From Phyllobacterium zundukense (GTDB lineage: Bacteria; Pseudomonadota; Alphaproteobacteria; Rhizobiales; Rhizobiaceae), in NCBI RefSeq assembly GCF_025452195.1, contig NZ_CP104972.1:186001-250000 (forward strand): 64,000 bases of DNA. The letters are read 5' to 3'. Of this stretch, positions 38,719 to 62,194 are shown piece by piece (the first letter of the stretch is position 1; each line of letters starts with the position of its first letter). The notes under the pieces were generated by a model. The model ran no database searches. It was given only the letters and a program-made list of their open reading frames with translations, and had not been told where the DNA came from. A program made the translations under genes and the position numbers.

Positions 38719-38726
38719 GAACGAGC
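38719..38726. repeat. 8-bp target duplication, left copy (GAACGAGC)
   Basis: GAACGAGC occurs here and again at 62187-62194, directly outside the IS6-type ends of the island. IS6-family elements make 8-bp duplications. Joining 38726 to 62195 restores a 159-base divergent intergenic region between the DUF1217 gene and motA. Confidence 0.85.
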
Positions 38727-38748
38727 GGCTCTGTCGCAAAAGCTTTGG
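38727..38748 (+). repeat. Left IS6-type terminal inverted repeat
   Basis: Pairs with 62165-62186 as an inverted repeat (18 of 22). No IS6 transposase can be seen next to it, so the left IS copy has been lost except for its end. Confidence 0.75.
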
Positions 38749-39175
38749 CGCGGCGCGGCACTGACTTGGTCAGCAGTTCTTGCACAGTTACGTTGCCGTG
38801 CGAATGACAGTTGTCCGTCCTGCATGGAGATAGTCGATGTACATCATTACGGGTCGAGTTTGCTGCCGAGGATTGTCGGCTAATTTCTTGGGCAGCAATC
38901 GGTCGCGTATGAATGAGACCAATCGACCAATGGTTTTTACAAAGATGGAAGTGATCAGAAACGTTTTGAAAATGCTGATGATAGCTGATTTTTTGCAGCC
39001 ATTAATGGGTGCCCGAACCCTACAATCGCACCAGCGACCTCTCGATCGATCCTGCTATCGATTTCCCGCCAACGGGATTCGCCAGATACCAGCGAAATCG
39101 GCCAAGAAGGACGGCGATGCCAGCTTGTGAACAACAAAGATCGACTATCATCCGAACCAACAAGGGGGACGATCC
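38749..39175. other. Non-coding stretch at the left end of the island
   Basis: 427 bases without a convincing gene. A minus-strand open frame (about 38804-39020) yields a basic, isoleucine-rich peptide with no start codon and no homology that I recognise. This may be what is left of the left IS6 copy and its neighbours. Confidence 0.4.
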
Positions 39176-39454
39176 ATGGCAGTTGGCTTTTTCAAGACTT
39201 TGAGGTCATCGCTGCGCGCCAACCTGCTGAAGCGTGTCGATGCACACATTGACGCGGGAACCATGGCCGCAATGAAGTTGAAATTTGAACCTGACACAGG
39301 TCGCCGCTACGTTGTTCTCAACATCACGACAGCAGGCGGGGGATCGACCAGTATACGTGCTTACGAAGTTGACGAATTTCTTGAAGTTGCGGAGAAACTA
39401 TCTGCCGCCATAAATGACATGCGAGCGGCTATTCTGTCGCCGCCGCAAGATTGA
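39176..39454 (+). CDS. Hypothetical protein, 92 residues
   Basis: Starts at ATG 39176 (MAVGFFKTLRSSLRANLLKR). Contains a basic amphipathic N-terminus and an alpha/beta C-terminal part (RRYVVLNITTAGGGSTSIRAYEVDEFLEVAEKLSAAINDM). I do not recognise a family. GGGGGACGATCC just upstream may serve as a ribosome binding site. First of a row of five small plus-strand genes, several frameshifted, that look like accessory genes of rhizobial plasmids or islands. Confidence 0.5.
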   Translation: MAVGFFKTLRSSLRANLLKRVDAHIDAGTMAAMKLKFEPDTGRRYVVLNITTAGGGSTSIRAYEVDEFLEVAEKLSAAINDMRAAILSPPQD

Positions 39455-39457
39455 GCG

Positions 39458-39807
39458 ATGCCATGGAAAGTCAGGTTCCGCGATAAGGATTTCACGCTCG
39501 ATCCCGAGTTTGAGTACGAAATCCGGATAGCGTTGGCTGATAAGCGCGAGCTTTCGGGTTCCGTGGAAATCATCTTCCATGAGCAAGACGACGGGTCGTA
39601 AACATCACCTTTCACGAATCAGCTGATCCTGATGAATTTTCGTTTGCAGGTACTCATGGATTACATCCTGAGATGGGCGAGGTGTACATTTTCTCTGGGA
39701 TGCCCGACGATGGCGGTCCGCAAGTGCTCGCGCTTTATAGTGTCGAGAATTTTGGCGAGCCTCCGGTCAACAAGGAACGATTTCCATTGGACAAGTTCAG
39801 ACAGTGA
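39458..39807 (+). pseudogene. Hypothetical gene broken by a frameshift
   Basis: The frame from ATG 39458 (MPWKVRFRDKDFTLDPEFEY) stops at 39599-39601 after 47 residues. A second open frame continues at once (NITFHESADPDEFSFAGTHG, then EVYIFSGMPDDGGPQVLALYSVENFGEP) to the stop at 39805-39807. A single missing base near 39598 would join them into about 115 residues. The protein is acidic, beta-rich and unknown to me. Starts three bases after the preceding gene. Confidence 0.45.
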
Positions 39808-40044
39808 TCATTCCAAAGCCAATATCCGCCAAACCATCCAGACCGCTTCGCTGACTGTCAGCGGGCAGTGGAAGATCGAATGCTCGAGCTCCTGGGCGAC
39901 GCCCAGGTGGCAGGATGGGCCAAGGACGAGGTCCTCGCCGCAATGATCGAAGTAGCCGAAAATACCAATCTGGCGATGCATCCAAACGTGCTGCTTTCTG
40001 TTGAGACAGAACTGAGAAAATTGATGAAGAAAAAGGATGTCTGA
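39804..40044 (+). pseudogene. Small conserved rhizobial-type protein, probably frameshifted
   Basis: A GTGA overlap joins a GTG start (39804) to the end of the previous gene, but after about five codons the homologous reading moves to another frame: QYPPNHPDRFADCQRAVEDRM then LELLGDAQVAGWAKDEVLAAMIEVAENTNLAM to the stop at 40042. The DCQRAVED...AGWxxxEV...A pattern is common in small uncharacterised proteins of rhizobia. If the upstream part is not used, the GTG at 39868 would give 58 residues. No function known. Confidence 0.45.
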
Positions 40045-40300
40045 ATTGGCTGACGCCAAACCTCATCCCGCGCGTCTTATTATTGTTGTCGCATTCAGCC
40101 GCGCAGACAATGGGCACCTTGTGCCTGCTTACGATCCGATGCAGTTCGATACCCCAGAAGACGCCACCCGAATGGCGCGTTATCTCGCGGTAAAATGCGT
40201 GGGCGTCTTGGCGTGGGTTCGCGATGCCCAGCCTGATGTGGGTGGCTACGGCCCTCCGACGATTCTGTTTCAATCTGGCGACGTCCCGGAGATGGAGTAA
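40037..40300 (+). CDS. Hypothetical protein, 87 residues
   Basis: Its ATG overlaps the end of the preceding gene by 8 bases (ATGTCTGA), so translation is probably coupled. The protein (ARLIIVVAFSRADNGHLVPAYDPMQFDTPEDATRMARYLAVKCVGVLAWVRDAQPDVGGYGPP) has an alpha/beta look with a final Asp/Gly/Pro stretch. I cannot name the family. Confidence 0.5.
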   Translation: MSELADAKPHPARLIIVVAFSRADNGHLVPAYDPMQFDTPEDATRMARYLAVKCVGVLAWVRDAQPDVGGYGPPTILFQSGDVPEME

Positions 40301-40316
40301 TCATCAAGCGATCAAG

Positions 40317-40758
40317 ATGACGTGGGAAGCAACCGTTCAAAACCTTATCAAAATTGGCGCGGTCAAAATCACCCGGCGCGATGAACTTGTCGTTCGCCAG
40401 CGCCTGGCAGACGCCGAGGCATATTTAACAGACACAAGAAATGTTACGACCACTCAATCGCGTTTCTTGCTGGCAGTTGAAGGGGTGCGCCAGGTAAGTC
40501 TTGCGATCCTCAACCACACCGGGATCAAAGCCATTCCCACGGCTCAAAACAAGATCGACGTGGCGCAGTTGGCCGCAATGACTGCACAGCTTGAAACCGT
40601 CGTTCCTGGAGCAGCAAAGATCCTCGGAGAAATCCGGAATATCCGCATACAACGGAAGAGCGTGTCACCTGCCCACCAATCTCGCCGGAGCGGGCGGCCA
40701 AGGCAGTGGATATCCTGGTCGCCCGTGCCGGAACTCTAACACATACCGGTAAAGACCC
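40317..40758 (+). pseudogene. HEPN-like protein with shifted C-terminus
   Basis: From ATG 40317 the product reads MTWEATVQNLIKIGAVKITR, then RLADAEAYLTDTRNVTTTQSRFLLAVEGVRQVSLAIL. This helical layout, a leading NLIKIG, a (R/L)ADA(E/R) helix and a SRF..AVEG(I/V)R.. helix, resembles HEPN-fold proteins common in rhizobial accessory DNA. No RxxxxH nuclease motif is visible. After about codon 115 the open frame becomes Arg/Ser-rich, whereas another frame (TCPPISPERAAKAVDILVARAGTL) reads more naturally to a stop at 40756-40758, so a frameshift near 40660 is likely. Confidence 0.4.
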
Positions 40759-41278: not shown

Positions 41279-41598
41279 TAATTGTCTCTACTTTGCTTTT
41301 GTACGGTTTGTTTCCATTAACCACCGTGATCACCCTCCCAACTGACCCTTGATGTTTATTGGGTGATATCTAATGTCGTCGAACCAGCGATTCTGATGGG
41401 AGCGATCTTTCCGTTTGCAGCCACATCATTGCCGATGAGTCATCAACTAAAGCTACAAAAAGCGGGCCACAATGCAAAAAGAATGTGAAAACGTTAGAAA
41501 TGGTACGGTTCTGCGACTGACCAAGCCCCGGAGCAACCCAATCCTGTGGGGTTTTAACCGAAGCAACACCCAGCAATTCTCTGTCGGCAGCTGACGAA
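41279..41598. other. Presumed promoter region of the glycosylation operon
   Basis: 320 bases between the divergent membrane pseudogene and the first gene of the six-gene plus-strand operon. No open frame of note and no flagellar-type box. A promoter for the operon should lie here, but I see no unambiguous -35/-10 pair. Confidence 0.4.
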
Positions 41599-42240
41599 AT
41601 GTCGGATACAGCTATAATCTATGGTGCAGGAGGCCATGCTAGAGAGCTTAGATTTCAGCTGATGGCGGCTGGTGTCGAAGTGGTGGCTTTCGTCGATGAT
41701 TTCCGCTACGGCCACTTGGTTGAGGATCTTTTAGTCCTCACGCGCGAGCATGCAATTGAGCTTTATCCTTCTGCAAAATGGCATCTCGGATTTGGGCAAA
41801 TTGCCGGCCGACGTAGAGTATTACAATCTCTTAGAGATGCGGGCTGTAGTATGGGAAGTTTTATAAGCCCAAGCGCGCTTGTTGCCCCAACGGCAAAAAT
41901 TTTTGAGCCCGCCCAAATATTTGCCAACACTGTCATCTCGACTGGGGCATCCGTGGGGGCAAATGTCATCATCAACTTTGGTGCAGTGATTTCCCACGAT
42001 GTGGTCATTGGTGAGAATAGCTACGTTTCTCCCGGGGCAAATATTGCTGGAAACGTAACGATTGGTCGTGGCGTCTGGGTTGGAGTGGGCGCAACTATAA
42101 AGAACGGTAGCTCTGGGATTGCTTTGACAATCGGCGACAATGTCGTAATTGGCGCTGGTGCTTGTGTCGTTAATAATGTGGAAGGCAATGCGGTAGTCAT
42201 TGGTGTTCCAGCAAAGGCGAGAAATAATTCCAATGTCTAG
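41599..42240 (+). CDS. Sugar N- or O-acyltransferase, PglD/NeuD family
   Basis: A 213-residue protein with an N-terminal Rossmann-like PglD_N domain (AIIYGAGGHARELRFQLMAAGVEVVAFVDD) and a left-handed beta helix of hexapeptide repeats (ANTVISTGASVGANVIINFGAVISHDVVIGENSYVSPGANIAGNVTIGRGVWVGVGATIKNG). The catalytic-type His lies in NFGAVISHDVVIG. Members acetylate or acylate 4-amino sugars (PglD on UDP-4-amino-sugar, VioB-like on dTDP-viosamine) or sialic acid. Eight-base overlap with the aminotransferase gene suggests that the two enzymes act in succession on one nucleotide sugar. First gene of the operon. Confidence 0.9.
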   Translation: MSDTAIIYGAGGHARELRFQLMAAGVEVVAFVDDFRYGHLVEDLLVLTREHAIELYPSAKWHLGFGQIAGRRRVLQSLRDAGCSMGSFISPSALVAPTAKIFEPAQIFANTVISTGASVGANVIINFGAVISHDVVIGENSYVSPGANIAGNVTIGRGVWVGVGATIKNGSSGIALTIGDNVVIGAGACVVNNVEGNAVVIGVPAKARNNSNV

Positions 42241-43354
42241 ACCTCCTATCTACGTAGCACACCCCTTGGTGCCCGCAGGCGAAGACTATCTTTCGATACT
42301 TGCTCCGGCACTGCAGAGTCGAAGGCTAACGAACGGAGGAGCGTTATCGTCAGAACTCGAATTACGTCTATCTGAATTATTCCGTACACGACATGTCAAT
42401 CTAATGAGCAACGGTACTGTAGCTATCGAAATAGCAGCTAAAGCCCTTAAGTTTAAGAATAAAGTAATCACCACGCCGTTTACCTTCGCCGCAACTGTCG
42501 GCGCCTTATTATGGATTGGACTAGATCCTGTGCTGGTAGACATCGATGAGGATTTTCTAACGTTGGATGCTACGGCAACCGAAAACGCGTTAGATGATGA
42601 TGTGAGCGGAATCGTCGGCGTTCATGTTTATGGATGTCCATGCGATTTAGACGCGTTCGCGAAGATATCGGAAGCTAGCGGCGTTCCCGTACTTTACGAC
42701 GGTGCCCATGTATTCGACGCCTCCTTTAATGGGTTACCGATCGTTGGCTATGGCGATGCTACGACCATGAGCTTTCACGCAACCAAGCAATTTAATACTG
42801 GGGAAGGTGGCGCTGTTGTCACCACTTCGCAAGAAGTCAATGCACGTGTCAACATTCTCAAGAATTTTGGCATCGAATCTGAGGATGTTATTTCGGATGT
42901 TGGCATAAATGGAAAGATGAGCGAACTCAATGCGGCCTTCGGTTTGGCCAACTTGGACGTTTTGTTCGAAGAGCGGGCACGACGGACCCAAGTAGCCCAA
43001 ATCTATACTAATGAGCTTTCTGAACACAGAAAAATCCGGATAGTGCAGCAACGGCCAGGAACTTCTAGTTCCAGTCAATATTTTGCCGTCAGACTTCCTG
43101 TCGAAAATAACGTACAACTGAGAGACAAGGTATATATAGCATTACGCGATCTTGGTATTTATACCAGGAAGTATTTTTATCCCCTTATTTCTGACTTACC
43201 CGCATACACCCAGCACATGAGCCAGAAAACATTCAATCTACCCAATGCAAATCGCGTTGCACGGGAGATCCTGACGCTACCTTTGCATGGTGGAGTTTCG
43301 GATAGCGATGCTAAATTGATTGCGAGGTCCGTAGTGGAGGCACTCGACGCTTAG
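42233..43354 (+). CDS. DegT/DnrJ/EryC1/StrS sugar aminotransferase
   Basis: About 373 residues from the ATG at 42233, which overlaps the previous stop (ATGTCTAG). A fold-type I PLP enzyme. VGVHVYGCPCDLDAF and VLYDGAHVFDA carry the cofactor-binding Asp, and SFHATKQFNTGEGGAVVTT carries the lysine that forms the internal aldimine. This family converts 4-keto-6-deoxy nucleotide sugars to the 4-amino sugar (PglE, VioA, PerA). Together with the acyltransferase it predicts a 4-acylamino-4,6-dideoxyhexose. No 4,6-dehydratase gene is in the window. Confidence 0.93.
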   Translation: MSRPPIYVAHPLVPAGEDYLSILAPALQSRRLTNGGALSSELELRLSELFRTRHVNLMSNGTVAIEIAAKALKFKNKVITTPFTFAATVGALLWIGLDPVLVDIDEDFLTLDATATENALDDDVSGIVGVHVYGCPCDLDAFAKISEASGVPVLYDGAHVFDASFNGLPIVGYGDATTMSFHATKQFNTGEGGAVVTTSQEVNARVNILKNFGIESEDVISDVGINGKMSELNAAFGLANLDVLFEERARRTQVAQIYTNELSEHRKIRIVQQRPGTSSSSQYFAVRLPVENNVQLRDKVYIALRDLGIYTRKYFYPLISDLPAYTQHMSQKTFNLPNANRVAREILTLPLHGGVSDSDAKLIARSVVEALDA

Positions 43355-43365
43355 GAGGCGGCTGT

Positions 43366-44595
43366 ATGATAAACTCGCCCAAAATATCGGTAATAATGCC
43401 GTCCTATAATCATCAGGAATTCATCGCAGAGGCCATTACTAGTGTTTTAAACCAAACAATCAGTTCTATTCAACTGATAATAGTTGACGATGGCTCCTCT
43501 GACGGGAGCGCTTCAGTCATCCGATCATTCACTGACGAACGTATTGTCTTCAAACAACTCCCTAGCAATTTAGGCGCATGCGAAGCATTGAACATTGGAC
43601 TCTCGCTTAGCGAAGCAGACCTAGTAGCCGTGTGCAATTCCGATGACCGTTGGCACAAAGATAAACTTCAGCGCCAACTCCGGGTGATGCAGGAGAGACC
43701 TGATATCGGCGCTGTTTTTACGAATGTGCAATGGATAGATGCGAATGGAGCATTTATCCCCGCTGATTCGTTAACCCCATACCATGCAGTATTTCAGCAA
43801 GCCAATCGTTCCAGGCAGGAATGGCTCAAAACTATAATAGAAAGAGGAAACTGCTTATGTCACCCATCGGTTCTTCTAAAGAAGGAAATATTCAGTAAAG
43901 TTGGCGCGTATGACAATAGATATAGACAGCTCCCTGACATGGATTTGTGGGTGCGCCTGTTACAATTGTACGAGATTTTCGTACTGCAGGACGCACTGAT
44001 AGAATTTCGCTTGCATGAAAGCAACACAAGTCGCCCTCTCCCGGCAACGAGCATACGGTCGATCAACGAACACCGGTTGGTGCTCGCGAGGCTGATGGAC
44101 GACATTAGCGCCTCCAATTTTCGGTCGACCTTTATACCCCACATCAAGAGTGAAAATGACATTGATGCCGAAAAGACTAAATACTTACTTAGTCACAACG
44201 GGCCATATGCGACCATGTTCAATCAGCTGGGTGCGGAGTGGTACTTAAAATTTGAACCGGACGCCACGGATTTGCCCATATCACCACACGAATTCCACGA
44301 AATAAATTCAATTAGTTCTCCGTGGTCACATCAGGAAGAAATACACAGGCTCAAGGAGGAAACAGACAGGCTCAAGGAGGAAACAGACGGGCTTAATGCC
44401 GAGCTGTGGCGCGCGAAAACACAGCTAAACGAACTAGCTGATCAACTGTCTGAACGGATAAAAGAAACCATCCAACTTAACACGACAATCAATCGAGAAG
44501 CAGTTTTCAATCTTTCAACTGCCAAACTTATTTCAGCGATTCTGTGTCGGTTAAAAAGTCGCACTCTTTCATTGGTAACCAGTAACTCACGATGA
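43366..44595 (+). CDS. Family 2 glycosyltransferase with coiled-coil tail
   Basis: A 409-residue protein with a GT-A domain (ISVIMPSYNHQEFIAEAITSVLNQT, then the DDGSSDGS motif, CNSDDRWHKDKL with the metal-binding SDD, and NCLCHPSVLLKK). From about residue 325 a coiled coil follows, EIHRLKEETDRLKEETDGLNAEL. This contains an exact 21-bp tandem duplication (44347-44367 and 44368-44388). Such coils are used for partner binding in polymer-assembly or protein-glycosylating enzymes. Starts 11 bases after the aminotransferase. Confidence 0.9.
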   Translation: MINSPKISVIMPSYNHQEFIAEAITSVLNQTISSIQLIIVDDGSSDGSASVIRSFTDERIVFKQLPSNLGACEALNIGLSLSEADLVAVCNSDDRWHKDKLQRQLRVMQERPDIGAVFTNVQWIDANGAFIPADSLTPYHAVFQQANRSRQEWLKTIIERGNCLCHPSVLLKKEIFSKVGAYDNRYRQLPDMDLWVRLLQLYEIFVLQDALIEFRLHESNTSRPLPATSIRSINEHRLVLARLMDDISASNFRSTFIPHIKSENDIDAEKTKYLLSHNGPYATMFNQLGAEWYLKFEPDATDLPISPHEFHEINSISSPWSHQEEIHRLKEETDRLKEETDGLNAELWRAKTQLNELADQLSERIKETIQLNTTINREAVFNLSTAKLISAILCRLKSRTLSLVTSNSR

Positions 44596-44661
44596 GAGTT
44601 TCAAACTCTCACGTTGCTCTAGTTAAACCTTAACGAGGCCCGTCGCCATTAGGAGAAACTA

Positions 44662-45426
44662 ATGCTAATTACATTCGCTGACCGATATGAGATGATTGCA
44701 ACTCTAGGCAATGGGCCACTGGACACAATGGTCGAGCTTGGTGTGTACAAGGGCGAGTTTGCCGATTTCTGCTCACAAAAGATCACTCCTAACCGGCACT
44801 ACCTGATCGATTTTTGGGATTATGATCGGTACGAGTTCGTGTTGAAAGACGCTCCCCAGAATTTAGAGCGTCAGGCGATATTTGAAAGTTATTTTGACAA
44901 TGAGCCTCGGGAGACCCTCTCAAGGGCGCAATTACAGGTAGAGGCTACGTTTTCGAATAGATCCAACACAAAGATAATAAAAGCAGACATTGCTGCAGCT
45001 GCGGTTGAGTTTCCAGATAATTTTTTTGATGTGATTTATCTTGACGGAAACCACACATATGAATTTGTTTTAAGAGATCTCTATACTTGGTATCCCAAAC
45101 TGAAGTCAGGTGGATTGTTTGTCTGCAACGATTACTTCGAGTCTTCATTTGCAGCGAAGCAAAACATTGGTGTGATCCCCGCATTTCAAACATTTTCTCA
45201 ACGCTTTGAAGTTCATCCTATTATGCTGTCAATGACTGAGTGGTCAGATTTTTATTTCTCCAACCAACCGCACTCTCCTCTGATAAGCAGACTGATAGAG
45301 GGATTGATCAATACGGGCCAAAATTTGCTGGAGATACCGTCTGATTTTCTTGGGAGCTATCATCACAGTGCAGTCAAGATTACCGGTGGACAAATTTTGC
45401 TTCCCGTCTTCGGAAAAGGAAAATGA
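44662..45426 (+). CDS. Class I SAM-dependent methyltransferase
   Basis: A 254-residue protein. The SAM-binding motif is DTMVELGVYKGEFADFCSQ near residue 20, the acidic post-strand motif comes later, and FFDVIYLDGNHTYEFVLRDLYTWYPKLKSGGLFVCNDYF is typical of the Methyltransf_24 type seen with macrocin O-methyltransferase-like and cephalosporin-hydroxylase-like proteins in polysaccharide clusters. It probably O-methylates a sugar hydroxyl. ATTAGGAGAAACT precedes the ATG. Third gene type of the operon; 66-base gap to the gene before. Confidence 0.8.
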   Translation: MLITFADRYEMIATLGNGPLDTMVELGVYKGEFADFCSQKITPNRHYLIDFWDYDRYEFVLKDAPQNLERQAIFESYFDNEPRETLSRAQLQVEATFSNRSNTKIIKADIAAAAVEFPDNFFDVIYLDGNHTYEFVLRDLYTWYPKLKSGGLFVCNDYFESSFAAKQNIGVIPAFQTFSQRFEVHPIMLSMTEWSDFYFSNQPHSPLISRLIEGLINTGQNLLEIPSDFLGSYHHSAVKITGGQILLPVFGKGK

Positions 45427-45529
45427 ATTAGGCGGCCGTTCGTTCAATTTTGAATTCGGTTATCACGCCGCTTTCTTGTCTTGTGGTTATTCCGCCGTAT
45501 TGCTAGAGCAAACCCGATAGGAACCCAGC

Positions 45530-46921
45530 ATGACAAACGAGTTTTATGATCTCCTGATAATCGACGACATCTATCCGTCGAACTTCTCGCCATTTCGGAC
45601 AATAGAATATAATCATTATATGTGGTTTTTTGATGCGGCGGTCCTCTCCATGGAAGGCTCGCAACTCTGGATCGAGAACAGCAAAATTGGTGAGCATATT
45701 GAAAAGCTGGATTTGGATTCGAAGTATAAATCTCGCATTTCTTCCTTTCGAGACGGCCATAAGATTGGCGGAAAAATCGCCTACATTACGTTCCTCGGAA
45801 ATGCCTACAAGCTATTGCCTTATCTGACCGCACGTGGATTACCCTTTATACTTCAGCTGTATCCCGGCGGTGGGTTCGCGATAGACCAACCGGAAACTGA
45901 TGAAAAGCTGAAAGCTGTTTTGTTAAGTCCCCTTTGCAAAAAGGTGATAACCACTCAAACCATTACTAAAGATTACATTGTCGACAAAATCGGCTGCAGC
46001 CCGGAAAAGATTGAGTTCATCTTCGGTGGTGTATTCGATAGTCGAATTGATTTTGATTATTACCGAGACAAGGTAGTCTATGGGAAACATAAGGAGACAA
46101 TAGACCTCTGTTTCGTAGCTCATAAATATGGTGACGATCTCGTCTCGAAAGGGTACGACTATTTTTTAGAAGTCGCTCAGACGCTTGAGCAGAAATTCTC
46201 AAACTTACGGTTCCACGTTGTAGGAGATTACTCCCCTGGCGATATTCCCCTTGAAAATATAGCCAAGAAGACCACGTATTACGGTCGCCAACCGAGTTCA
46301 TTCTTCGCTGATTTCTATCCAAAAATGGACGCAATCGTGTCGTTCAACCGGCCCTTTGTTTTGATGCCAGGAGCCTTTGACGGGTTCCCGACGGGTGCTT
46401 GCTTGGAGGCCGGTTTTCGGGGAGTCGCTAACATTATAAACGATCCTCTTAACTTAAACATCGCGTTCAAGGACGGTGAAGATCTTTTAATACTAAACGA
46501 CGATTTTCAGAGTTCGATTGAGAAAATTTCTCGGCTGCTTGCTGACCAAAACGCTCTAATGAACTTGGGCGTTGGAACTTGGCGAGCTTTTCACCGCACT
46601 ATGGACCTAGATGCCCAGCTATGGGCCAGGACAAAGGTTATAGGTGACGAACTCTTGAAACACACTGCTCTTGTCGCTGTGGCTCCTTTTACTAAGAGTT
46701 CGCTCGACGGAGAACCACTCCGATTACAAACTCAAAACATTCTACACGAGAAAAATCACCTGCAGGCTGAACTCGATAGAGCTTTGAGCCGAATTGCCCG
46801 GCTAGATTCAGAGCTCAGTCAATGGCAGCGGGTCGTTGAGCATGTCTCCAAAGGCGTACCGTATAGAGCTTATGCAAAAGTCAAGGCGTTCGCTCGCCGA
46901 AATCTGAACTTTGGAGGTTAG
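45530..46921 (+). CDS. Glycosyltransferase, GT4-like, with C-terminal coiled coil
   Basis: A 463-residue protein with a GT-B-like fold by pattern: KVITTQTITKDYIVDKIGCSPEKIEFIFGGVFDSRIDF at the interdomain start, then LRFHVVGDY and a nucleotide-sugar site resembling FDGFPTGACLEAGFRGVANIIND with the E in the usual GT4 place. The last 60 residues are a coiled coil (QTQNILHEKNHLQAELDRALSRIARLDSELSQ), like the end of the upstream GT2 protein, so the enzymes may assemble together. Sugar and linkage unknown. Confidence 0.75.
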   Translation: MTNEFYDLLIIDDIYPSNFSPFRTIEYNHYMWFFDAAVLSMEGSQLWIENSKIGEHIEKLDLDSKYKSRISSFRDGHKIGGKIAYITFLGNAYKLLPYLTARGLPFILQLYPGGGFAIDQPETDEKLKAVLLSPLCKKVITTQTITKDYIVDKIGCSPEKIEFIFGGVFDSRIDFDYYRDKVVYGKHKETIDLCFVAHKYGDDLVSKGYDYFLEVAQTLEQKFSNLRFHVVGDYSPGDIPLENIAKKTTYYGRQPSSFFADFYPKMDAIVSFNRPFVLMPGAFDGFPTGACLEAGFRGVANIINDPLNLNIAFKDGEDLLILNDDFQSSIEKISRLLADQNALMNLGVGTWRAFHRTMDLDAQLWARTKVIGDELLKHTALVAVAPFTKSSLDGEPLRLQTQNILHEKNHLQAELDRALSRIARLDSELSQWQRVVEHVSKGVPYRAYAKVKAFARRNLNFGG

Positions 46922-46923
46922 TT

Positions 46924-48108: not shown

Positions 48109-48440
48109 GATAGAACACGGTCGTTTCAATAAGTTTACATTTCCCCCTCGCATCCCGTAGGAAACAAGGGGCTGATTTATTGACGGGGGGACATAGCTCA
48201 AGGCGGCGAACTGGGGTTCCTGCGCTCGTAATCTTCCCTCGCCTGCATTGTGGCTGTTAAAGCTGCAATTGCATTGCACATACAGACCTTGCCGTGTTGC
48301 AATCGATCGAGCCTCGTAAGCGTGTCATTCTGGAAGTTGGCGGCAGTGGCGTGGGCCGTGACCTGTTTCGTTTCCACTCCGGTAAGGCGGTCATTCACCT
48401 TTACAGATTGATCAATGGCCGTGGTTGCTGTCCGGACGTG
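48109..48440 (-). pseudogene. Coiled-coil fragment of unknown origin
   Basis: After the operon end an open minus-strand frame (48198-48440) reads as the tail of a helical protein (TAIDQSVKVNDRLTGVETKQVTAHATAANFQNDTLTRLDRLQ, then QAREDYERRNPSSPP). Its start merges into IS66 sequence, so it is a truncated gene. Small helical proteins of this look occur in rhizobial prophages, but I cannot name it. 48109-48197 holds nothing visible. Confidence 0.35.
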
Positions 48441-49150: not shown

Positions 49151-49198
49151 GCGAGCTTGCTGAAGCAAGCTGCCGGCATCGAATCCAATACCCTAATC

Positions 49199-49459
49199 CT
49201 GGTTGAACGGTTGATGCGCGTTCGGCCCCACCCCCAGCAGAGCTACCGCGCTGCGCAAGGCGTTCTGTCGCTTTCCCGGCGCTATGGACCTGCTCGGATG
49301 AACGCCGCCTGCGAGCGGGCGCTGACGATCAATGCGCTCTGCTATTCCTCCGTCAGCACCATTCTCAAATCGGGTCTCGATCAGGCTCCGCCTGTCGATG
49401 AGCCGGTCAAGCCAGCCCCGCCGCACGGCAACATCCGCGGCAGTTCCTATTACCAGTGA
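49199..49459 (+). pseudogene. IS21-family IstA C-terminal fragment
   Basis: The segment [61 protein letters not shown] is the C-terminal end of IstA, the IS21 transposase, with the usual stop 19 bases before istB. The integrase core and DNA-binding regions are missing. The fragment begins at the junction with IS66 DNA. Confidence 0.8.
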
Positions 49460-49478
49460 AGAAAGGAAGACACGCAAC

Positions 49479-50563: not shown

Positions 50564-50585
50564 ACGTCCCATCGTTCACCTTCGA

Positions 50586-54498: not shown

Positions 54499-55660
54499 TT
54501 TCCCTTAATGCCGCCTTCAGAACGTCGATGTTGACGCTATAGGCCATCTCTATACCTTCACTAATGTCGTGATCTGATAGAACATCAGGAGCGCAAGCGC
54601 AAAGGTACCAATCAAGTCCAAAAACGCCACACGTCTGCCTCGTCCAACCATCCGGAAAGGTAGAAGGTTGAATTTCAAGCACTTTTGCTCCGGTTTCGCA
54701 GAACGCAACGTGCGCCATACCAGCACCGCCTTCGCCGACGACGACCCTGGCATTGCTCACCTCCTGCACAATATCGTTCATAGGCGTTATAGTTGGATCA
54801 ACGATTCGAAAACCATAATCGATAAGCATTTCCTCGACCTGCGACCTGTTTCTCATGAATCGCTTTTTGCTCACCCCCCGGTTGATGAAAATTTTGGTCT
54901 GGTCGGTCTTCGTCACCGCCACACCAATTCTTAAAAGATCAAACACCGGACGAACAAATCGTGTAGGAAACTGAAGGTGCCCGTAAAGCATCGTGTTGGC
55001 CAATAGCACGCGAAATGTGGTGTGGCTGGGAAGGGGAGTATAGTTCTTCAATAGACCCAGCCTATCGAGTATGTCTTCTTGCCAAGAAGCCAAATGCCCA
55101 CCAACCAAAGTGAAATCATCATTAAAATATGGCGACGATTTCAGCGCCAACGCAGCTCCAAGCCCATCCATAAGGAAATGCCCGAAATTAGGAGCGCCTG
55201 GGCCGCATATTGGCATGGCAATTTTGTCAACATATGGCACTTTCTCCCAACTAGAGATGCTTATATCCCCGCCTTCATTGCGGAAGATCGGATCAAAGGT
55301 AGCGAGGGATTCAAGGCGAAAATCGACGCCTGCCGAGGTATCAAGAGCTCCCTTGTACAAATAGTTTCCGCTGGCGATAACTGAGTAAGAATACGGTGAA
55401 AACAACGAATACGGAAGTGAAACGAATTCTATCCCCTGCCTATGTGCGATTGGTTTCGAATACCAATCATTTATGAGACTTTCCTTTTCCGCGAATGCGT
55501 TCTTTCCAAATTCGGCTGCCTTAACTACGTTATCCAAGTGCAAAAAATCGCTCGTCCGGTACAGCATCGGCTGAGCGTAGCCTTCCAATAGGGCTTGCAT
55601 GAACTCAGAGAGCGTGCCGGCTGTTCTTCCTGTTACAGTTTCAATGAGCCGCACAGACAT
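54479..55660 (-). CDS. Glycosyltransferase family 61 (DUF563)
   Basis: A 393-residue GT61 protein, read from ATG 55660. Its C-terminal half holds the family's motif DRT/NRGxxxxRxIxN in altered form (KIFINRGVSKKRFMRNRSQVEEMLIDYGFRIVDP) and the SxAxxxVGxxGAGMxH-type site (RVVVGEGGAGMAHVAFCETGAKVLEIQPSTFPDGW). Bacterial members occur in capsule and O-antigen loci. First gene of the minus-strand unit, with 55661-55992 as a divergent promoter region. Confidence 0.85.
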   Translation of the reverse strand: MSVRLIETVTGRTAGTLSEFMQALLEGYAQPMLYRTSDFLHLDNVVKAAEFGKNAFAEKESLINDWYSKPIAHRQGIEFVSLPYSLFSPYSYSVIASGNYLYKGALDTSAGVDFRLESLATFDPIFRNEGGDISISSWEKVPYVDKIAMPICGPGAPNFGHFLMDGLGAALALKSSPYFNDDFTLVGGHLASWQEDILDRLGLLKNYTPLPSHTTFRVLLANTMLYGHLQFPTRFVRPVFDLLRIGVAVTKTDQTKIFINRGVSKKRFMRNRSQVEEMLIDYGFRIVDPTITPMNDIVQEVSNARVVVGEGGAGMAHVAFCETGAKVLEIQPSTFPDGWTRQTCGVFGLDWYLCACAPDVLSDHDISEGIEMAYSVNIDVLKAALREIDNDKS

Positions 55661-55992
55661 GGAAAAAGTCCTCTCAGGTGGTACCGATTCGTGTCACATC
55701 AGCTGCAACCGCTCTCGCCCCTAAGTTGTTGGACTCTTAACCCCAAAGTCAAAGGGTCTCCATGACAATTTTCGAATCTCCATCAAAGTTCACGGTGAAG
55801 CCGCTTTGGCAGGTTACTGAGAAAACCAATCCGATCGCTTGGATGAGACTTTCATCAGCAACAGAATGTCGACCGCCTAACGGTATTTGGTACGGATGCA
55901 CAGCTAGCGTGAATCTGTTATCTATGAATCCGAATTCGATTAGGATAGTTCTCCAATCGATAGACGTTTGAATTCTTATTGGAGAACGCGTG
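55661..55992. other. Divergent intergenic region
   Basis: 332 bases between the GT61 gene (minus) and the methyltransferase pseudogene (plus), expected to hold both promoters. A 69-codon plus-strand frame (55762-55971) opens at an ATG with GGGTCTCC upstream but its product (MTIFESPSKFTVKPLWQVTE...) matches nothing I know. I leave it uncalled. Confidence 0.4.
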
Positions 55993-57010
55993 ATGAAACC
56001 GAATGAGTTTGGTCATATTCAGCAACAGGTTTCAGCAATTGAGAAGGGTTTGCCTGCCGATGCGAGCCGCTCCCTTGCGCTGCACCATTTGCAAGAACTC
56101 GGACTAAACGACTATCTGCAAACGCTGTGGTATATGCCAGATGCCAGATATCCTCGCCTTTCAGCTGCTTTACCGGCTATGGCCTCGCCAGAAGTTCAAA
56201 TGCAGTGGACGGGTCAATCGGATTTGCCTCTCATCATTCAGACCACTTCATTTGTTCGCTCGGTAGCGGAGCATTACGTTAGGCTGCAGAACGAACCATT
56301 AACCGATAAAAAGATTCTCGACTTTGGTTGCGGTTACGGAAGGATGCTCCGAGCGTTCTCGTTTTACAGCAATAATGTCTACGGGGTAGATCCTTGGTCG
56401 GAGTTCTATACGCATTTGCAATGAAGCCGGCCTGACCGAATCCGTCTTTCTTTCAGATTATCTGCCAGACAGTTTACCCGTCCCTGATGATTTCGATTTC
56501 GTGTTTGCTTTTTCGGTGTTCACACACCTCAGTGAGCGCGCCACCAAGAAAAACCTCGCCGCAATACGGAACCATATGAAAGTCGGAGCACTGGCCTGCA
56601 TTACAATTCGTCCCGTGGAATATTGGTCGCACGTTCATGGCAGCGAGCCTCAAGATTGGCTTGAAGCTCGATGGAACGCGCATCGGGAAGAGGGCTTTAC
56701 ATTTCAACCTCATCAGCAGCGTGAACTGGTAGATGGTGACATCACTTATGGCGACACGTCAATGACGATTGAGTGGCTTATGTCAGTTGCGGATGGCTTC
56801 GAATTGGCTGCAGTCGATCGTAGCAGCGATGACGAATACCAACGGTACGTTTTCCTGCGGGCTATTCCATTCGAGGAATCGGTGTCCAGACCGACTCGTT
56901 CTGCAATCCTTCATCGTCGCCCCGCGCCAGGCCAACTTGTTCACGAGACGCGAACGGTCGACTTGGTTCGAACGGTACTCTCGCGACTTAAGTCGCGAGT
57001 GGGCATGTGA
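55993..57010 (+). pseudogene. SAM methyltransferase broken by a one-base insertion
   Basis: From ATG 55993 the frame covers a helical N-terminus and the SAM motif DKKILDFGCGYGRMLRAFSF, and stops at 56422-56424. A second frame resumes with VFAFSVFTHLSERATKKNLAAIRNHMKVGALACITIRPVEYWSHVHG and runs to 57008-57010. Removing one T from 56404-56405 (GAGTTCT to GAGTCT) fuses them as GVDPWSESIRICNEAGLTES without a stop, about 338 residues in all. It resembles class I methyltransferases beside glycosyltransferases. Either a recent frameshift or a sequence error. The last codons hold a perfect 20-bp palindrome (56980-56999). Confidence 0.75.
56980..56999. repeat. Perfect 20-bp palindrome at a gene end
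   Basis: CTCGCGACTT and its exact complement AAGTCGCGAG abut with no spacer, inside the last codons of the methyltransferase pseudogene. As RNA it would form a stem only with a strained loop and no U run follows, so it is not a standard terminator. As DNA it resembles a dimeric protein site. Possibly chance coding structure. Confidence 0.5.
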
Positions 57011-57469: not shown

Positions 57470-58519
57470 ATGGCAGAAACGACCCGGCCCCTTTCCAAAC
57501 GAAAAGCCTCGATCGTTACCATCATCCCCTACTATAACGGGTCTGCGTTCGTTGAGCGGGCCGTGAAGAGCGCCTTTGGCCAAAGCGTCCTGGCTGATGA
57601 GTTAATAGTGGTCAACGACGGATCAACCGAATCTGAGGCTGCATTCGTGCGCGACTTGGGCGAGCGTATGAAATTCAAAGTGATTGACCAAGCAAATGGT
57701 GGTCAAGGATCGGCCCGGAACGCCGGGGTTGCTGCGAGCACATCGGAGTATATCTGCTTTCTCGACCAAGATGATTTCTACCTTCCCACTCATAACGAGA
57801 TTCTCGCTAATGGCATTCCTCATGACAACAAGCGCTTCGGATGGGTGTACGCCGATCTATATCGCGCTGAAGTCAATGGAACCTTGGTCAAGAAGGAAAT
57901 TGTCAAAAATTATGGCGAGCATCCCAAGTCCTCACTGCATCAGGTCCTTGGCACAAATCTGATGATACTGCCGTCGGCGTCGTTAATATCTCGTCGGGCA
58001 TTCGAAGATGTTGGCGGCTTCGACGAACAGTTTACGGGATACGAAGATGATGACCTATTCATTCGCCTCTTTCGGGCTGGCTACTCAAACGACTTCATTT
58101 CAAAACACGTTGCTGTTTGGTGCATGCATGATGAAAGTACGTCAAACAGCATCCGGATGAGCCGCAGTCGCCTGAAATTCTTTAAAAAGTGGGCGTCCAT
58201 TTTCCCAGATGACCCAAGTACGGGTGAATTTATCCTGCGGGATTGCCTTGTCCCAAGATTCCATACCGACTTTATTGGAGAATCCATGACGGCCATGTTG
58301 CAGGATCAGGAGAGCAAGACGAACATCTATATTCACAGACCCGAGCTTAGGCACATTTTGAATGAATATGCCGGTATTGTTCTGCGCAGTCCTAGCGTTT
58401 CGCAAAAGATGAAATTCAGGTTGAGAGTGCAATTAGCGATACTGTCACTCGATTCCAAGATTGCTGGGAGCGCGGCCAGAGGCGCTATGAGGTTTTTAAG
58501 GTCGCTTAAGGGCTCATAA
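57470..58519 (+). CDS. Family 2 glycosyltransferase
   Basis: A 349-residue GT-A enzyme (VTIIPYYNGSAFVERAVKSAFGQSVLADELIVVNDGS, then NGGQGSARNAGVAASTSEYICFLDQDDFYLP with the DQDD metal motif, and GGFDEQFTGYEDDDLFIRLFRAGY with the acceptor/base aspartates). It resembles glycosyltransferases of exopolysaccharide and O-antigen clusters. The methyltransferase remnant begins within a few bases of its stop. Confidence 0.92.
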   Translation: MAETTRPLSKRKASIVTIIPYYNGSAFVERAVKSAFGQSVLADELIVVNDGSTESEAAFVRDLGERMKFKVIDQANGGQGSARNAGVAASTSEYICFLDQDDFYLPTHNEILANGIPHDNKRFGWVYADLYRAEVNGTLVKKEIVKNYGEHPKSSLHQVLGTNLMILPSASLISRRAFEDVGGFDEQFTGYEDDDLFIRLFRAGYSNDFISKHVAVWCMHDESTSNSIRMSRSRLKFFKKWASIFPDDPSTGEFILRDCLVPRFHTDFIGESMTAMLQDQESKTNIYIHRPELRHILNEYAGIVLRSPSVSQKMKFRLRVQLAILSLDSKIAGSAARGAMRFLRSLKGS

Positions 58520-58525: not shown

Positions 58526-58877
58526 CTTTCAACGGCTGCTGGAGCCGGGTCGGAAATATTATCTTGTAATTCCTGATAAGCGCTATTGCTTCGATCATAA
58601 TAGTGATCCCTCCAGTCTTGCAGCTGTTCTGAAGAGTAAAGGGCAGACTAGACACCCGCTTCTCAAAGTTATTGAGCATCGCGCACTAACAACTCACAAT
58701 GAGGCATCAGCGGCATTGTGCTGGCGACCAGGTCAATGATGGTTGGAAAGAATCAATTGCCGAAAGGGCGGTAGCCGCAATCCACGAACACGAATTGGCC
58801 GACGGCGACTACGTTGATGTACATGGCAGTTCACACCACCGCACAATGATACGCAGTTTACGGCAGTTATGGCATTG
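58526..58877 (+). pseudogene. Class I methyltransferase, C-terminal remnant in three frames
   Basis: Immediately after the GT2 stop the sequence reads NISFQRLLEPGRKYYLVIPDKRYCFDH, then LKVIEHRALTTHNEASA to a stop at 58737. In a second frame HCAGDQVNDGWKESIAERAVAAIHEHELADGDYVDVH follows, and in a third TWQFTPPHNDTQFTAVMALS. The PDKRYCFDH...VIEHRALTTHN...DVHxWQFTP series is the C-terminal half of a recognisable methyltransferase family found with polysaccharide genes. The SAM-binding N-terminal half is absent, so a deletion fused the remnant to the GT2 gene. Confidence 0.75.
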
Positions 58878-58879
58878 TC

Positions 58880-61120
58880 CTAATTCTCTACGTGCTCCCA
58901 GATTAAGGCTGGGGAAAACTCAGGAGTTGCCGATTCAATGTCCGCGATTGGACAGCGTATGGAACCCACAATGCCTATGTTTTTTTCCGCTTTATCGACG
59001 GCGTGTTCGAGGGCAATTGCAATACTCTCTGGTGTTACCACCTGAAGACTTTCAAGGAGCGGACTTCGTTTCGACAGGTCCTTGCAATCGTAGAGATTTG
59101 TGATGGTATGAATGCCTGCGTACGCCATTTCAAGCGGAGGATAACTAGGGTGCGGGGATATCATCAAGGACAAGCCGACGGATGCTTTACTCAGCAGTTC
59201 AGCATATACAGATAGAGGCATCTTTCCAGTAATAATGGCATTGTCCAGATCCACCAACTGTCGCACATCAAATGGCTCTCCGATGCAATATATTTGCCAT
59301 TCTGCGGCTTTTAAAGGGTTTCGTCTGCTCCATAGTCCAAGCCCATCGATACCAGCTTCGAAGCAGTTCCGGACGGCAGATGGCCTGGAATAAAATAGAA
59401 TTATCTTTTCCCGTGGAACCGGCCTGAGAGCCTCATCTATTTTCCTGTTTATCTCATACCGCAGTATGCGTTTATTAGAGTGACTATATTGCTTCGCGAA
59501 AAAATTTTCCAATTCTTCAGAATTGAATATGGCAAACGTATCGTCGTCACGACGATACGTTGAGTCGGCAAGTGCGTACTTCGTAGACCACCCATAAAAT
59601 CCGGGCTCAAAATCCTGAATAAGATAAATGACTTTCGGGGCTTTCCCGAACAATATTTTCTGAGCCTCTTGGAGCCTATAAGCGTTTAAGGCGGTCCACC
59701 AAGCCGTCGCCATGAATACATCGTTCTTCGTCACTTCCAAATGATTTTTTAATCTGACAGTGGCGTCAACGATGGTGTGTTGTTTGCGGGTTTCACTTCC
59801 GATCTTCTGAATTTCATAACCTTGCAGGATATGCGGAATTGATTCACTTACAGGTGTCTCGCTTACTACAACCCTGAAGTCTGTCTCATCCTTTGAAGCG
59901 TCTGCTATCTGACGGAAGATCTTCAATGCTGTGTCAATTCCACCAAATATATGCGCAGATTCAATGGACGGAACCATCAGATTCAATCGTCGCCTACCCT
60001 CATATTTCGGAGCAGCGGTGATTCTGATAGTCTCATAATTCGTCTGCTGAGTTAGTGTGATATATTCTTGGCTGGATGTGGCCAGTGATTCGAATAAGGA
60101 AGTCATGTTAGTAGGCTCAATCTTGGATTTCGCACGTTTATCTGTGCTGACTCGTATCCAGGTGTGACCTGACTTTTCTACGAAATACAAAAGCGATCTT
60201 TCGATCGCATGCGCCAACGTCCCATCTACCTGACCGGCTTCATCTGGGAAATCCTGGTAATCCAGATTCAGGTTAAGCAATTGCTTTATCGCTGCCGACC
60301 TACCCCAGTACATAGAGCCAGATGGGAACTCGAGTGTACTGTAGGCATCAAGATTTATACCAATGCGCGCTAGCAACGTTCTCGCGATCGGAAAGTCATA
60401 ACCCCAATTAATAACGCTCTTTATGAATTCAGCATGTTCAGGGTATACTACCCCGACATTGACCCTCGACAGGAGCGACAGATTGCTAGCAGCGATTTCT
60501 GGGCTCCCTATCAATGATGAGACTAAATAGTCCCGCCATGAAGCGTATTCGCCAGCGGCGTGTAAGGATTGTTTGGAATGGAGATGCAAGAATGCTGGAT
60601 AGCGGTCATAGACCTCTCTATAGGCTATGTATTTGGGGGCAACGTCACGGCCCCTATTCGGCACAATTCTTATCTCGATCTCTACGGGAGATAGATCAAC
60701 GCGGGAAAGCAGATCCAGAATAGTAGCTTTCTTTTCTTCGCTGTCTGTCGTTATGAATAACCCATACGGCACCGGTATGTTTCCCAAGTGCTTCGCGATC
60801 TCCGCCGTAATCTCTGGATAGAAGATATGAATTATTACGGCGACACGGTCAAAAACCGAAGTGTCCACAGAATCAAGCGGAATCGCGATGGATGGATTGA
60901 CATTGTCTGGTATTGTCCTCGCAAGGACCGCACCAATCTCATTCAGTGATCCAGCATGTCGAAACTGCAAGGCAACGCTTGGGGTTGATTTGAACCAAGG
61001 AAGAGGAAACCTGAACGTTTCAATCCGAAATGCGACATACCTCAGGGAATGAGCAAATAAGCCCCGTGCCCCCTTTTCTTGATAAACTCCAAAAGCCTTG
61101 ACTGCGTAATTCGTAACCAT
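58880..61120 (-). CDS. Glycosyltransferase, RgpF plus WsaF-type domains
   Basis: About 746 residues from the ATG at 61118-61120 (GGTCGGAGCGGG upstream). The TTG at 61141 is also possible. Residues about 85-330 form an RgpF domain (RVAVIIHIFYPEITAEIAKHLGNI, FLHLHSKQSLHAAGEYASWRDYLVSSL, EFPSGSMYWGRSAAI). From about residue 385 a WsaF-like GT4 module follows (RLNLMVPSIESAHIFGGIDTALKIFRQIAD, YLIQDFEPGFYGWSTKYALADSTYR, IFNSEELENFF, PHPSYPPLEMAYAGIHTITNLYDCKDL). WsaF is a rhamnosyltransferase of S-layer glycan synthesis. Both large proteins of the island thus share rhamnan-type N-terminal modules. Confidence 0.85.
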   Translation of the reverse strand: MVTNYAVKAFGVYQEKGARGLFAHSLRYVAFRIETFRFPLPWFKSTPSVALQFRHAGSLNEIGAVLARTIPDNVNPSIAIPLDSVDTSVFDRVAVIIHIFYPEITAEIAKHLGNIPVPYGLFITTDSEEKKATILDLLSRVDLSPVEIEIRIVPNRGRDVAPKYIAYREVYDRYPAFLHLHSKQSLHAAGEYASWRDYLVSSLIGSPEIAASNLSLLSRVNVGVVYPEHAEFIKSVINWGYDFPIARTLLARIGINLDAYSTLEFPSGSMYWGRSAAIKQLLNLNLDYQDFPDEAGQVDGTLAHAIERSLLYFVEKSGHTWIRVSTDKRAKSKIEPTNMTSLFESLATSSQEYITLTQQTNYETIRITAAPKYEGRRRLNLMVPSIESAHIFGGIDTALKIFRQIADASKDETDFRVVVSETPVSESIPHILQGYEIQKIGSETRKQHTIVDATVRLKNHLEVTKNDVFMATAWWTALNAYRLQEAQKILFGKAPKVIYLIQDFEPGFYGWSTKYALADSTYRRDDDTFAIFNSEELENFFAKQYSHSNKRILRYEINRKIDEALRPVPREKIILFYSRPSAVRNCFEAGIDGLGLWSRRNPLKAAEWQIYCIGEPFDVRQLVDLDNAIITGKMPLSVYAELLSKASVGLSLMISPHPSYPPLEMAYAGIHTITNLYDCKDLSKRSPLLESLQVVTPESIAIALEHAVDKAEKNIGIVGSIRCPIADIESATPEFSPALIWEHVEN

Positions 61121-61352
61121 CCCGCTCCGACCAAATTTCAAAATGAGTATGCCTTTGCAGCGCTAGACCAATGGAGCTATGGTGTAAAGTACGTTAAGCG
61201 TCAGGAGCGTGGATGCGGTTAGTGAGACAAATCCTTTTGAGAAAAGAGAGGGCGGCAATCGTCTGCGGTGCCTGCTTCACGGCTATCCTATAGTCTAGCG
61301 TCTGAAGATTTGGGCAGACCGTCGTCAAATAATAGCGTCTTGTGCACCAAGA
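61121..61352. other. Non-coding region
   Basis: 232 bases before the terminator of the DUF1515 gene. On the minus strand at about 61145-61180 a sequence resembles a tRNA D arm but no full tRNA can be folded. Nothing else visible. Confidence 0.3.
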
Positions 61353-61412
61353 ACAAAAAAGCCGGTGGGCAAAATAAGCGCTCGGATTCCTACATGTTGA
61401 GGCCCACCCGGC
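61353..61412 (-). terminator. Rho-independent terminator of the DUF1515 gene
   Basis: On the minus strand GCCGGGTGGGC (61412-61402) pairs with GCCCACCGGC (61370-61361, one bulged base) across a 31-base loop, followed by six Ts (61360-61355). It lies 22 bases after the stop of the DUF1515 gene. Confidence 0.75.
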
Positions 61413-61434
61413 AGCCCGACCGGCAGGGCGATTG

Positions 61435-61680
61435 CTATTTGTGAAACAGTCTGGATATCCACTCTATCGAGCTGGCGAGGCTGATACCGAGCGCGGTGCA
61501 GGCAATCCCGACGACACCTAATCCACCGAGCCCCATCGCGCGCCATTGCTTCACCTGGTCAGTGACCTTCTTGCTGTCCTTGACCTGATCGGTGATCGTG
61601 GCGATGTCAGTCTTGATGTCGCCTACCTCGTTGACGATCTCATCCATGCGGCGATGAACGACCGCACGGTTAAGGTTCAT
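61435..61680 (-). CDS. DUF1515-like small membrane protein, probably N-truncated
   Basis: 81 residues: a coiled coil (HRRMDEIVNEVGDIKTDIATITDQVKDSKKVTDQVKQWRAM) and one transmembrane helix (GLGGLGVVGIACTALGISLAS) near the C-terminus. This combination and the KxVTDQVxxW segment match the DUF1515 family of rhizobial prophages, where holin-like roles are suspected. Members are usually longer by 30-40 residues at the N-terminus; that end here runs into IS6 DNA of the opposite strand (from 61655), so the gene was probably cut by it. Confidence 0.6.
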   Translation of the reverse strand: MNLNRAVVHRRMDEIVNEVGDIKTDIATITDQVKDSKKVTDQVKQWRAMGLGGLGVVGIACTALGISLASSIEWISRLFHK

Positions 61681-61815
61681 GGATGTATCTTTATCGAGCC
61701 ATCAACAGCCTTGGAGACACGGTCGGGTTCTACTTCAGGGAACAACGGGATCTGGCTGCTGCAAAGCGTTCTTCAACAAGACTCTTGGTCAACGTGGCCG
61801 ACCTGATCGTGTCCC
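61655..61815 (+). pseudogene. IS6-family transposase, middle fragment
   Basis: VKVHG, then in a second frame MYLYRAINSLGDTVGFYFREQRDLAAAKR, then in a third FFNKTLGQRGRPDR. This covers the segment around the first catalytic Asp of the DDE transposase to the start of the VxxDxS region, with two frameshifts. The first 70-90 codons and the C-terminal third are missing. It lies in opposite orientation to the N-terminal piece at 61925-62117, so a rearrangement joined or inverted them. Confidence 0.75.
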
Positions 61816-61924
61816 GTTGGCTATCCATTCATGCGATGGGCGGTGATGATCCACGCACGCGAGTCAAATAGCACACCATCCTCTGACATGTGCTTTTCGA
61901 GCAAATGGCGTAACCGCTGTAGCG

Positions 61925-62117
61925 CGTACGTGCTTGTTGAAGCGTTCAAGCAATTGCGGAAAGTAGCGCGAAAGACCAGCGATGTACCGTCGAGTGATCC
62001 ACTCGGATATTGCGTTCTTGCATCATTTCTTCCAGATCGCGCAGGCTCGGGCCATAAGTCAGATACGCGCGCACACAGCAGAATGACTGATCGGTCGAAA
62101 TGACGTCCCTTAAACAT
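61925..62117 (-). pseudogene. IS6-family transposase, N-terminal fragment
   Basis: From ATG 62117: MFKGRHFDRSVILLC, then in a second frame VRAYLTYGPSLRDLEEMMQERNIRVDHSTVHRW, then in a third SRYFPQLLERFNKHVRA. This is the helix-turn-helix N-terminus of an IS6 transposase with two frameshifts. It points into the island; its terminal repeat ends at 62186, next to the 8-bp duplication, so this is the outermost IS copy on the right. Confidence 0.8.
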
Positions 62118-62164
62118 CTGACCTCTCCGAAGTTTCACCGGAGATAGATAATGGCCCTCTCGTA

Positions 62165-62186
62165 CCGAAGAGTTTGCGACAAAGCC
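62165..62186 (-). repeat. Right IS6-type terminal inverted repeat
   Basis: Minus-strand GGCTTTGTCGCAAA with 8 further partly matching bases, starting at 62186. It pairs with 38727-38748 and marks the right end of the island. Placed 69 bases before the IS6 ATG, as expected for the family. Confidence 0.8.
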
Positions 62187-62194
62187 GAACGAGC
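62187..62194. repeat. 8-bp target duplication, right copy (GAACGAGC)
   Basis: Identical to 38719-38726. Native flagellar DNA resumes here, 16 bases before the motA box. Confidence 0.85.

Follow-up and report, generated by a model that had tools for sequence, protein, structure and literature searches.

A probable recurrent insertion site between divergent flagellar operons of Phyllobacterium, and a glycan island that occupies it between IS6-family ends

The analyzed stretch of Phyllobacterium zundukense DNA (here, the window: 64,000 nucleotides, positions 186001–250000 of the 990-kb contig NZ_CP104972.1, or C4, in a genome of 6.41 Mb) contains a flagellar gene cluster interrupted by a 23.46-kb island (38727–62186). 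The island lies between two divergent operons, DUF1217–flgF–fliI reading leftward and motA reading rightward. We read the spacer between these operons, with a probability of about 0.75, as a recurrent insertion site in Phyllobacterium, at which, in the window, ends of an IS6-family insertion sequence (IS) would have integrated into a short, sequence-variable target with an 8-bp duplication; the DNA now between the ends would be a partly decayed, mosaic island of glycosyltransferase and sugar-modification genes.

Among 80 public motA loci (the best 80 of 420 candidates, the closest relatives of the window being Phyllobacterium), both flanks are present in 79; L066, whose contig ends at the site, is left out of the gap counts. 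The gap between the operons is 128–182 bp at 75 of the 79 loci. The four larger gaps are 373 bp in L063 (isolate AFS078673), 1512 bp in L090 (Brucella endophytica), 3579 bp in L061 (P. brassicacearum STM 196), and 3798 bp in L062 (P. sophorae), i.e., approximately 0.2, 1.4, 3.4, and 3.6 kb of extra DNA. A plasmid search adds Phyllobacterium sp. A18/5-2, where the conserved boxes bordering the spacer (see below) are at positions 11259–11276 and 76116–76135 of NZ_CP104967.1, 64.8 kb apart. The site is empty, judged by the positions of both flanks, in strain T1293 and in P. zundukense (a record counted apart from the window). More than 1 kb is present at the site in 4 of 23 Phyllobacterium genomes (19 motA loci, the window, A18/5-2, P. 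zundukense, and T1293).

The inserts differ in content. The L061 insert has one open reading frame (ORF; 6561–9620) of 1019 amino acids with a LysM domain and no further Pfam match; the L062 insert has DUF982, SnoaL, and nucleotidyltransferase ORFs; and the A18/5-2 insert has transport and catabolic genes (20 of the 64 listed ORFs scanned, 14 with Pfam matches). The flanks of P. sophorae and A18/5-2 are 96–97% identical up to the site; their common interior is only 1.48 kb long, at 93.6% identity. The extra DNA of B. endophytica (L090 8544–9933) carries a regulator-like ORF of 312 amino acids (LysR-like by eye), and that of isolate AFS078673 (L063 9685–9941) shows no repeat or inverted ends.

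As a control, we compared gap lengths at 19 adjoining ORF boundaries, taken from the window and from 41 public loci (33–42 values per boundary, a small sample), the boundaries being those of mechanically chosen longest ORFs, some of which are probably antisense to real genes. At the site, 4 of 41 loci exceed the median by more than 1 kb; the 18 other boundaries together yield one such case, an IS110-family element in the window. An insertion hotspot is recognized by cargo that differs between related genomes and by inserts more frequent than at neighbouring sites, and in this sample the motA/flgF spacer shows both. This recurrence is a new finding beyond the first-pass annotation, made from the window alone, which missed the repeated uptake of foreign DNA in the genus. 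No description of the motA/flgF site was found in the leading share of a far larger set of literature matches, which is weak evidence of absence.

Two conserved boxes border the spacer, CAAGCTTGCCTGAAGCTG (forward strand) on the left and CTGCAAGGTTCACGCAAGCC on the right, and point away from it. Both are kept in each case, and every insert falls between them; this holds for Phyllobacterium and its near kin, both boxes being unplaceable in most Mesorhizobium and related loci. The right box of L090 has four mismatches to the Phyllobacterium form, as it does in the kin of that strain. The box core GSTTCRSGCAAGC, derived from the two window boxes and their relatives, occurs at one mismatch in five copies in the 64 kb versus 1.2 expected (1 of 100 shuffles reaches five), and the three further copies are on the coding strand, 39–49 bp upstream of flhA, flgE, and fliF. 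We take the core as a putative flagellar activator box, with the regulator Rem as the candidate binder; the latter suggestion draws on flagellar regulation as treated in passages of PMC8429497 and PMC9812332. The first-pass annotation proposed that both flagellar promoters survived the insertion; putative upstream boxes do remain on either side of the island, and an IS110-family element lies further down the same flagellar operon.

Several observations weigh against this interpretation of the site and its boxes. At two mismatches, the core is found 23 times versus 16.5 expected (6 of 100 shuffles reach 23), which is not clearly above chance, and the adjoining 12 kb has no copy. When the 100-bp end stretches of each insert were compared, neither a 7-base direct repeat nor an 8-base inverted repeat was found for L061, L062, L063, or L090; A18/5-2 has one of each kind (a 7-mer and an 8-mer, unpaired), far from matching positions. 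At the sequence level, a common mechanism for the different inserts thus lacks support from repeats or ends. The P. sophorae and A18/5-2 inserts may go back to one event, and smaller gains, approximately 200–800 bp over the median, are seen at five other boundaries. The IS6 signature is present at the site in the window only, and, since neither IS6 ends nor a target duplication is seen for the other inserts, the hotspot is not specific to this IS family.

The recurrence of inserts probably reflects tolerance only, i.e., foreign DNA would land anywhere in the cluster, and the inserts in the divergent gap would survive since those elsewhere break operons. The neighbouring flagellar genes overlap or are closely spaced, and with genes packed so tightly, tolerance is the simplest explanation, although the smaller gains accepted by other gaps indicate that the cluster is not closed elsewhere. 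The site would then recur mainly since an insert there breaks no transcription unit. We lean towards tolerance over a true docking site, at which conserved flagellar flanks would let islands swap between strains by recombination, with the cargo between activator boxes under flagellar control, and which appears improbable.

At the island itself, the first-pass annotation described an 8-bp repeat flanking 14-bp inverted ends that differ at one base, and both are present. The repeat, GAACGAGC, directly abuts the island on both sides (the window has three copies of this 8-mer on the forward strand and one on the reverse); the left end, GGCTCTGTCGCAAA, starts at 38727, the right end, GGCTTTGTCGCAAA on the reverse strand, closes the island at 62186, and they are alike at 13 of 14 bases. 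Both fit the IS6 terminal consensus GGTTCTGTTGCAAA, in which GG comes first and position 7 is G; the consensus is taken from passages of PMC6807381, where IS6 elements have 14-bp terminal repeats resembling it. We searched the whole window for pairs of sites resembling the island ends (at most four mismatches, more than 200 bp apart). Among 2335 inward-facing pairs, the island ends alone have an identical flanking 8-mer, two other pairs having 7 of 8 bases; the chance expectation of an 8/8 repeat is 2335 x 4^-8 = 0.04.

The right end leads, as annotated, into an IS6 transposase fragment, namely residues 1–68 (reverse strand, 62117–61915, with frame breaks), and residues 82–145 follow on the forward strand, inverted relative to this end. 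The ends were classified with a profile built by transposase homology from IS6 elements of Phyllobacterium and Mesorhizobium (17 5' ends and 13 3' ends after collapsing 23 and 14, respectively; assignment correct for 15/17 and 10/13 when each was left out in turn). The right end is of the 5' class (10.9 versus -1.1 bits, positions 15–24). The left end is ambiguous, with 1.6 bits for the 5' and 2.3 bits for the 3' profile; by BLAST it is most similar to a P. brassicacearum 5' end (22/24). The left IS6 remnant comprises only approximately 14–24 bp (the terminal repeat and about nine bases), followed by other DNA, and no credible transposase piece was found near it. No clear parent element of the left end was found in plasmids, phages, or 296 other genomes of the family, nor in a pattern search (at most two mismatches) of 396 other genomes of the order. 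Two candidates were rejected: a 48-bp segment inside the left end (38746–38793), 79% like P. brassicacearum G019 (L164 1421–1468), where the match is outside the nearby IS6; and a Leisingera match to the left end (22/24 bases), with no convincing transposase beside it.

Four close relatives, with flanks 93–96% identical to the window, are empty at the site and lack the island as a block. Their spacers are 28 bp (P. bourgognense), 39 bp (P. trifolii), 39 bp (KW56), and 42 bp (Ca. P. onerii) long; the window spacer would be 37 bp (29 + 8) once the island is taken out together with one of the repeats. The restored intergenic region of 159 bp given by the first-pass annotation is reproduced with the motA start at TTG 62265 (start codons in the window are set mechanically). 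Its prediction of a single GAACGAGC in the empty site is not borne out in any of these four relatives: their spacers have diverged, each being different, and the original 8-mer is not visible because the spacer is too variable. As for the adjacent, divergent DUF1217 and motA genes that it placed in Sinorhizobium and relatives, the same order is annotated in S. meliloti, but the nearest relatives are Phyllobacterium. The central claim stands: the insertion is of IS6 type, duplicated 8 bp, and went into a divergent gap that is otherwise empty, and the cargo is of polysaccharide type.

Arrival of the whole island as one unit is only a possibility: the left IS6 is reduced to an end of ambiguous type, and the interior is mosaic. 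Two sub-cases of an IS6 insertion at a recurrent site can be distinguished. In one, all 23.5 kb moved at once, either as a pseudo-compound transposon of the IS6 type or when a circular unit bearing IS6 fused with the chromosomal site, and the left IS was mostly lost later. This is quite possible, if somewhat short of even odds: GAACGAGC flanks the outermost ends, IS6 elements move DNA by way of cointegrates and create 8-bp repeats (passages of PMC7986276), and none of the four close relatives has the island as a block, with only pieces elsewhere in the genus. However, no transposase piece is seen near the left end; functional IS6 compound structures have ISs in direct repeat (same passages), which would require a left end of the 3' type, and this end is of ambiguous class, with close scores and a 5' end as its best match; and the interior combines IS66, IS21-helper, and other transposon remnants with a wsaF segment that has a relative elsewhere in P. 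bourgognense.

In the other sub-case, a single IS6 landed first, and the cargo was added inside it by further insertions and rearrangements. We entertain this tentatively: a difference at 1 of 14 bases is often seen between the two ends of one IS6 (passages of PMC6807381), and the island ends differ to this extent; the two transposase pieces do not overlap and could belong to one rearranged copy; several kinds of transposon remnants are found inside the island; and in the narrow lineage of P. sophorae and A18/5-2 the DNA inside the site has changed. No intermediate was seen, however, and more events are needed than for a single arrival. Because identical outer ends are expected whether the island came in one step or grew inside one IS6 copy, the data do not separate the two sub-cases, and we hold them about equal.

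The island has a GC content of 0.496 versus 0.573 in the flagellar flanks, and consists of two blocks of glycan genes framing a strip of transposon remnants (Table 1; 20 ORFs scanned for domains, 16 with matches). A DNA comparison with 296 other family genomes gave nothing at E<=1e-10 for the first block (41500–48200), which has weak matches within the genus (Ca. P. onerii, 68%); a search of 383 other genomes of the family for the family 61 glycosyltransferase gene gave nothing at E<=1e-25. For the RgpF + WbsX protein, 4063 relatives are found at E<=1e-60 among 7997 candidates scored, the nearest (83% identical) on an 8-kb contig. The wsaF block (58533–61209) has a 77–79% relative at another locus of P. 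bourgognense, on a different contig (L224 7261–10019), where the adjacent ORF encodes 255 amino acids; only approximately 300 bp of that ORF match in the window. Pieces of the island occur in 13 of 20 genomes of the genus (12 besides its own), and no other member has more than pieces; plasmids yielded no full match of the island, and a unit with the same ends was not found elsewhere. Parts of 39449–40750 have 70–85% relatives at several other places of contig C4. As no flippase, polymerase, or exporter family was found among the 20 ORFs scanned, we think that the cargo may modify an existing surface glycan rather than build and export one by itself.

A flagellin glycosylation island kept beside flagellar genes for its function is unlikely: the DegT and NeuD/VioB-type pair, the glycosyltransferases and methyltransferases, and a flagellin gene approximately 11 kb away would suit it, but the cargo at this site elsewhere has no glycan theme in the scanned ORFs (LysM, DUF982, SnoaL, nucleotidyltransferase, catabolic, and transport genes), and a flagellin-specific site was set aside, other species carrying unrelated cargo there.

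Genomic-island hotspots generally hold different cargo at one locus in related strains. The Phyllobacterium site shares this feature; here, however, no tRNA is found in the window, and the site is a divergent flagellar promoter spacer. With IS6 pseudo-compound transposons and translocatable units (IS26, IS257, IS6100), as described in parts of PMC7986276 and PMC6807381, the island has in common the 14-bp ends, the 8-bp repeat, and the cargo between IS ends; those units have two directly repeated ISs, whereas the island has a broken IS on the right and, on the left, only an end of ambiguous orientation. Flagellin glycosylation islands of Pseudomonas, Aeromonas, and Geobacillus likewise have glycosyltransferase and sugar-modification genes beside flagellar genes; unlike those, the Phyllobacterium site holds unrelated cargo in related species. 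Salmonella 4,[5],12:i:- is likewise reported to have taken up a large block, of 28 kb, at its flagellar fljAB region (abstract of PMC4861720); there the flagellar operon was replaced, whereas in Phyllobacterium the flanking operons and boxes remain.

In the flanks, FlgF, FliI, and MotA are identified by NCBIfam. The gene adjoining the island on the left (37855–38637) has no match in the NCBIfam search, and its name, DUF1217, is taken from annotated relatives. Domain matches left of the island include FliR, FlhA, FlgD, a flagellin-like protein (FlgL by position), FlgK, FlgE, a Rem-like regulator (18989–19705), FliK, MotB, FliF, flagellin, FliP, FlgH, FlgI, FlgG, FlgB, FliI, and FlgF; those on the right are MotA, FliG, and FlhB; some of these gene names are interpretations of the domain matches. 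The window has no Rfam match. The IS110-family element (1457 bp, 34295–35751) separates fliI from the ORF that follows it in the flagellar operon and could be polar on downstream flagellar genes; it has no counterpart in P. bourgognense, where the two flanking ORFs overlap by 4 bp. An NADH:flavin oxidoreductase gene followed by an IS481-type transposase gene is found at 1121–3294. In four Phyllobacterium, motA and flgF–fliI are on replicons recorded as plasmids, from 211 kb to 1.59 Mb (NZ_CP017945.1, NZ_CP050300.1, NZ_CP088276.1, NZ_CP104967.1).

Table 1. Features of the island and its borders, with box core copies (window coordinates).
Position	Strand	Feature	Basis
13505–13517, 18898–18910, 26428–26440	coding strand	box core copies, one mismatch, upstream of flhA, flgE, fliF	
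38680–38697	-	left conserved box, putative promoter element of the DUF1217–flgF–fliI operon	conservation; core on - at 38683–38695
38719–38726		left copy of target duplication	sequence
38727–38749		left IS6-type end, 14-bp inverted repeat and ~9 bp	end comparison; 5' or 3' type ambiguous
39176–40750	+	small hypothetical ORFs	three ORFs without Pfam match
41599–42240	+	NeuD/PglB/VioB-type sugar acetyltransferase	above NCBIfam cut-off
42233–43354	+	DegT-family sugar aminotransferase	domain match; best NCBIfam matches below cut-offs
43366–44595	+	family 2 glycosyltransferase	domain match
44662–45426	+	methyltransferase (Methyltransf_24)	domain match
45530–46921	+	glycosyltransferase group 1	weak match
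46924–48108	+	glycosyltransferase-like protein	domain match
48477–50572		transposon remnants: IS66 transposase piece (-), IstB (IS21 helper, +), HTH_Tnp_1 ORF (-)	domain match
51210–52064	-	methyltransferase (Methyltransf_24)	domain match
51982–54498	-	RgpF + WbsX glycosyltransferase protein, 838 amino acids	domain match
54479–55660	-	family 61 glycosyltransferase	domain match
55990–57010	+	pair of ORFs, possibly a single broken gene; weak methyltransferase likeness in the first	weak match
57470–58519	+	family 2 glycosyltransferase	domain match
58880–61141	-	RgpF + WsaF glycosyltransferase protein, 753 amino acids	domain match
61435–61680	-	DUF1515 ORF	domain match
61674–61840	+	IS6 transposase residues 82–145, inverted versus right end	homology
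61915–62186	-	right IS6 5' end and transposase residues 1–68, frame breaks	homology, end profile
62187–62194		right copy of target duplication	sequence
62203–62222	+	right conserved box, putative motA promoter element	conservation

Within one genus, the site offers a natural series at a single pair of flagellar operons: empty, and with approximately 0.2, 3.4, 3.6, 23.5, and 64.8 kb inserted, including two strains with near-identical flanks and differing interiors. The recurring landing site looks like one that spares both flagellar start regions. The series allows one to ask whether divergent flagellar promoters depend on their mutual closeness, and by what means foreign DNA enters a motility cluster whose switches are kept.

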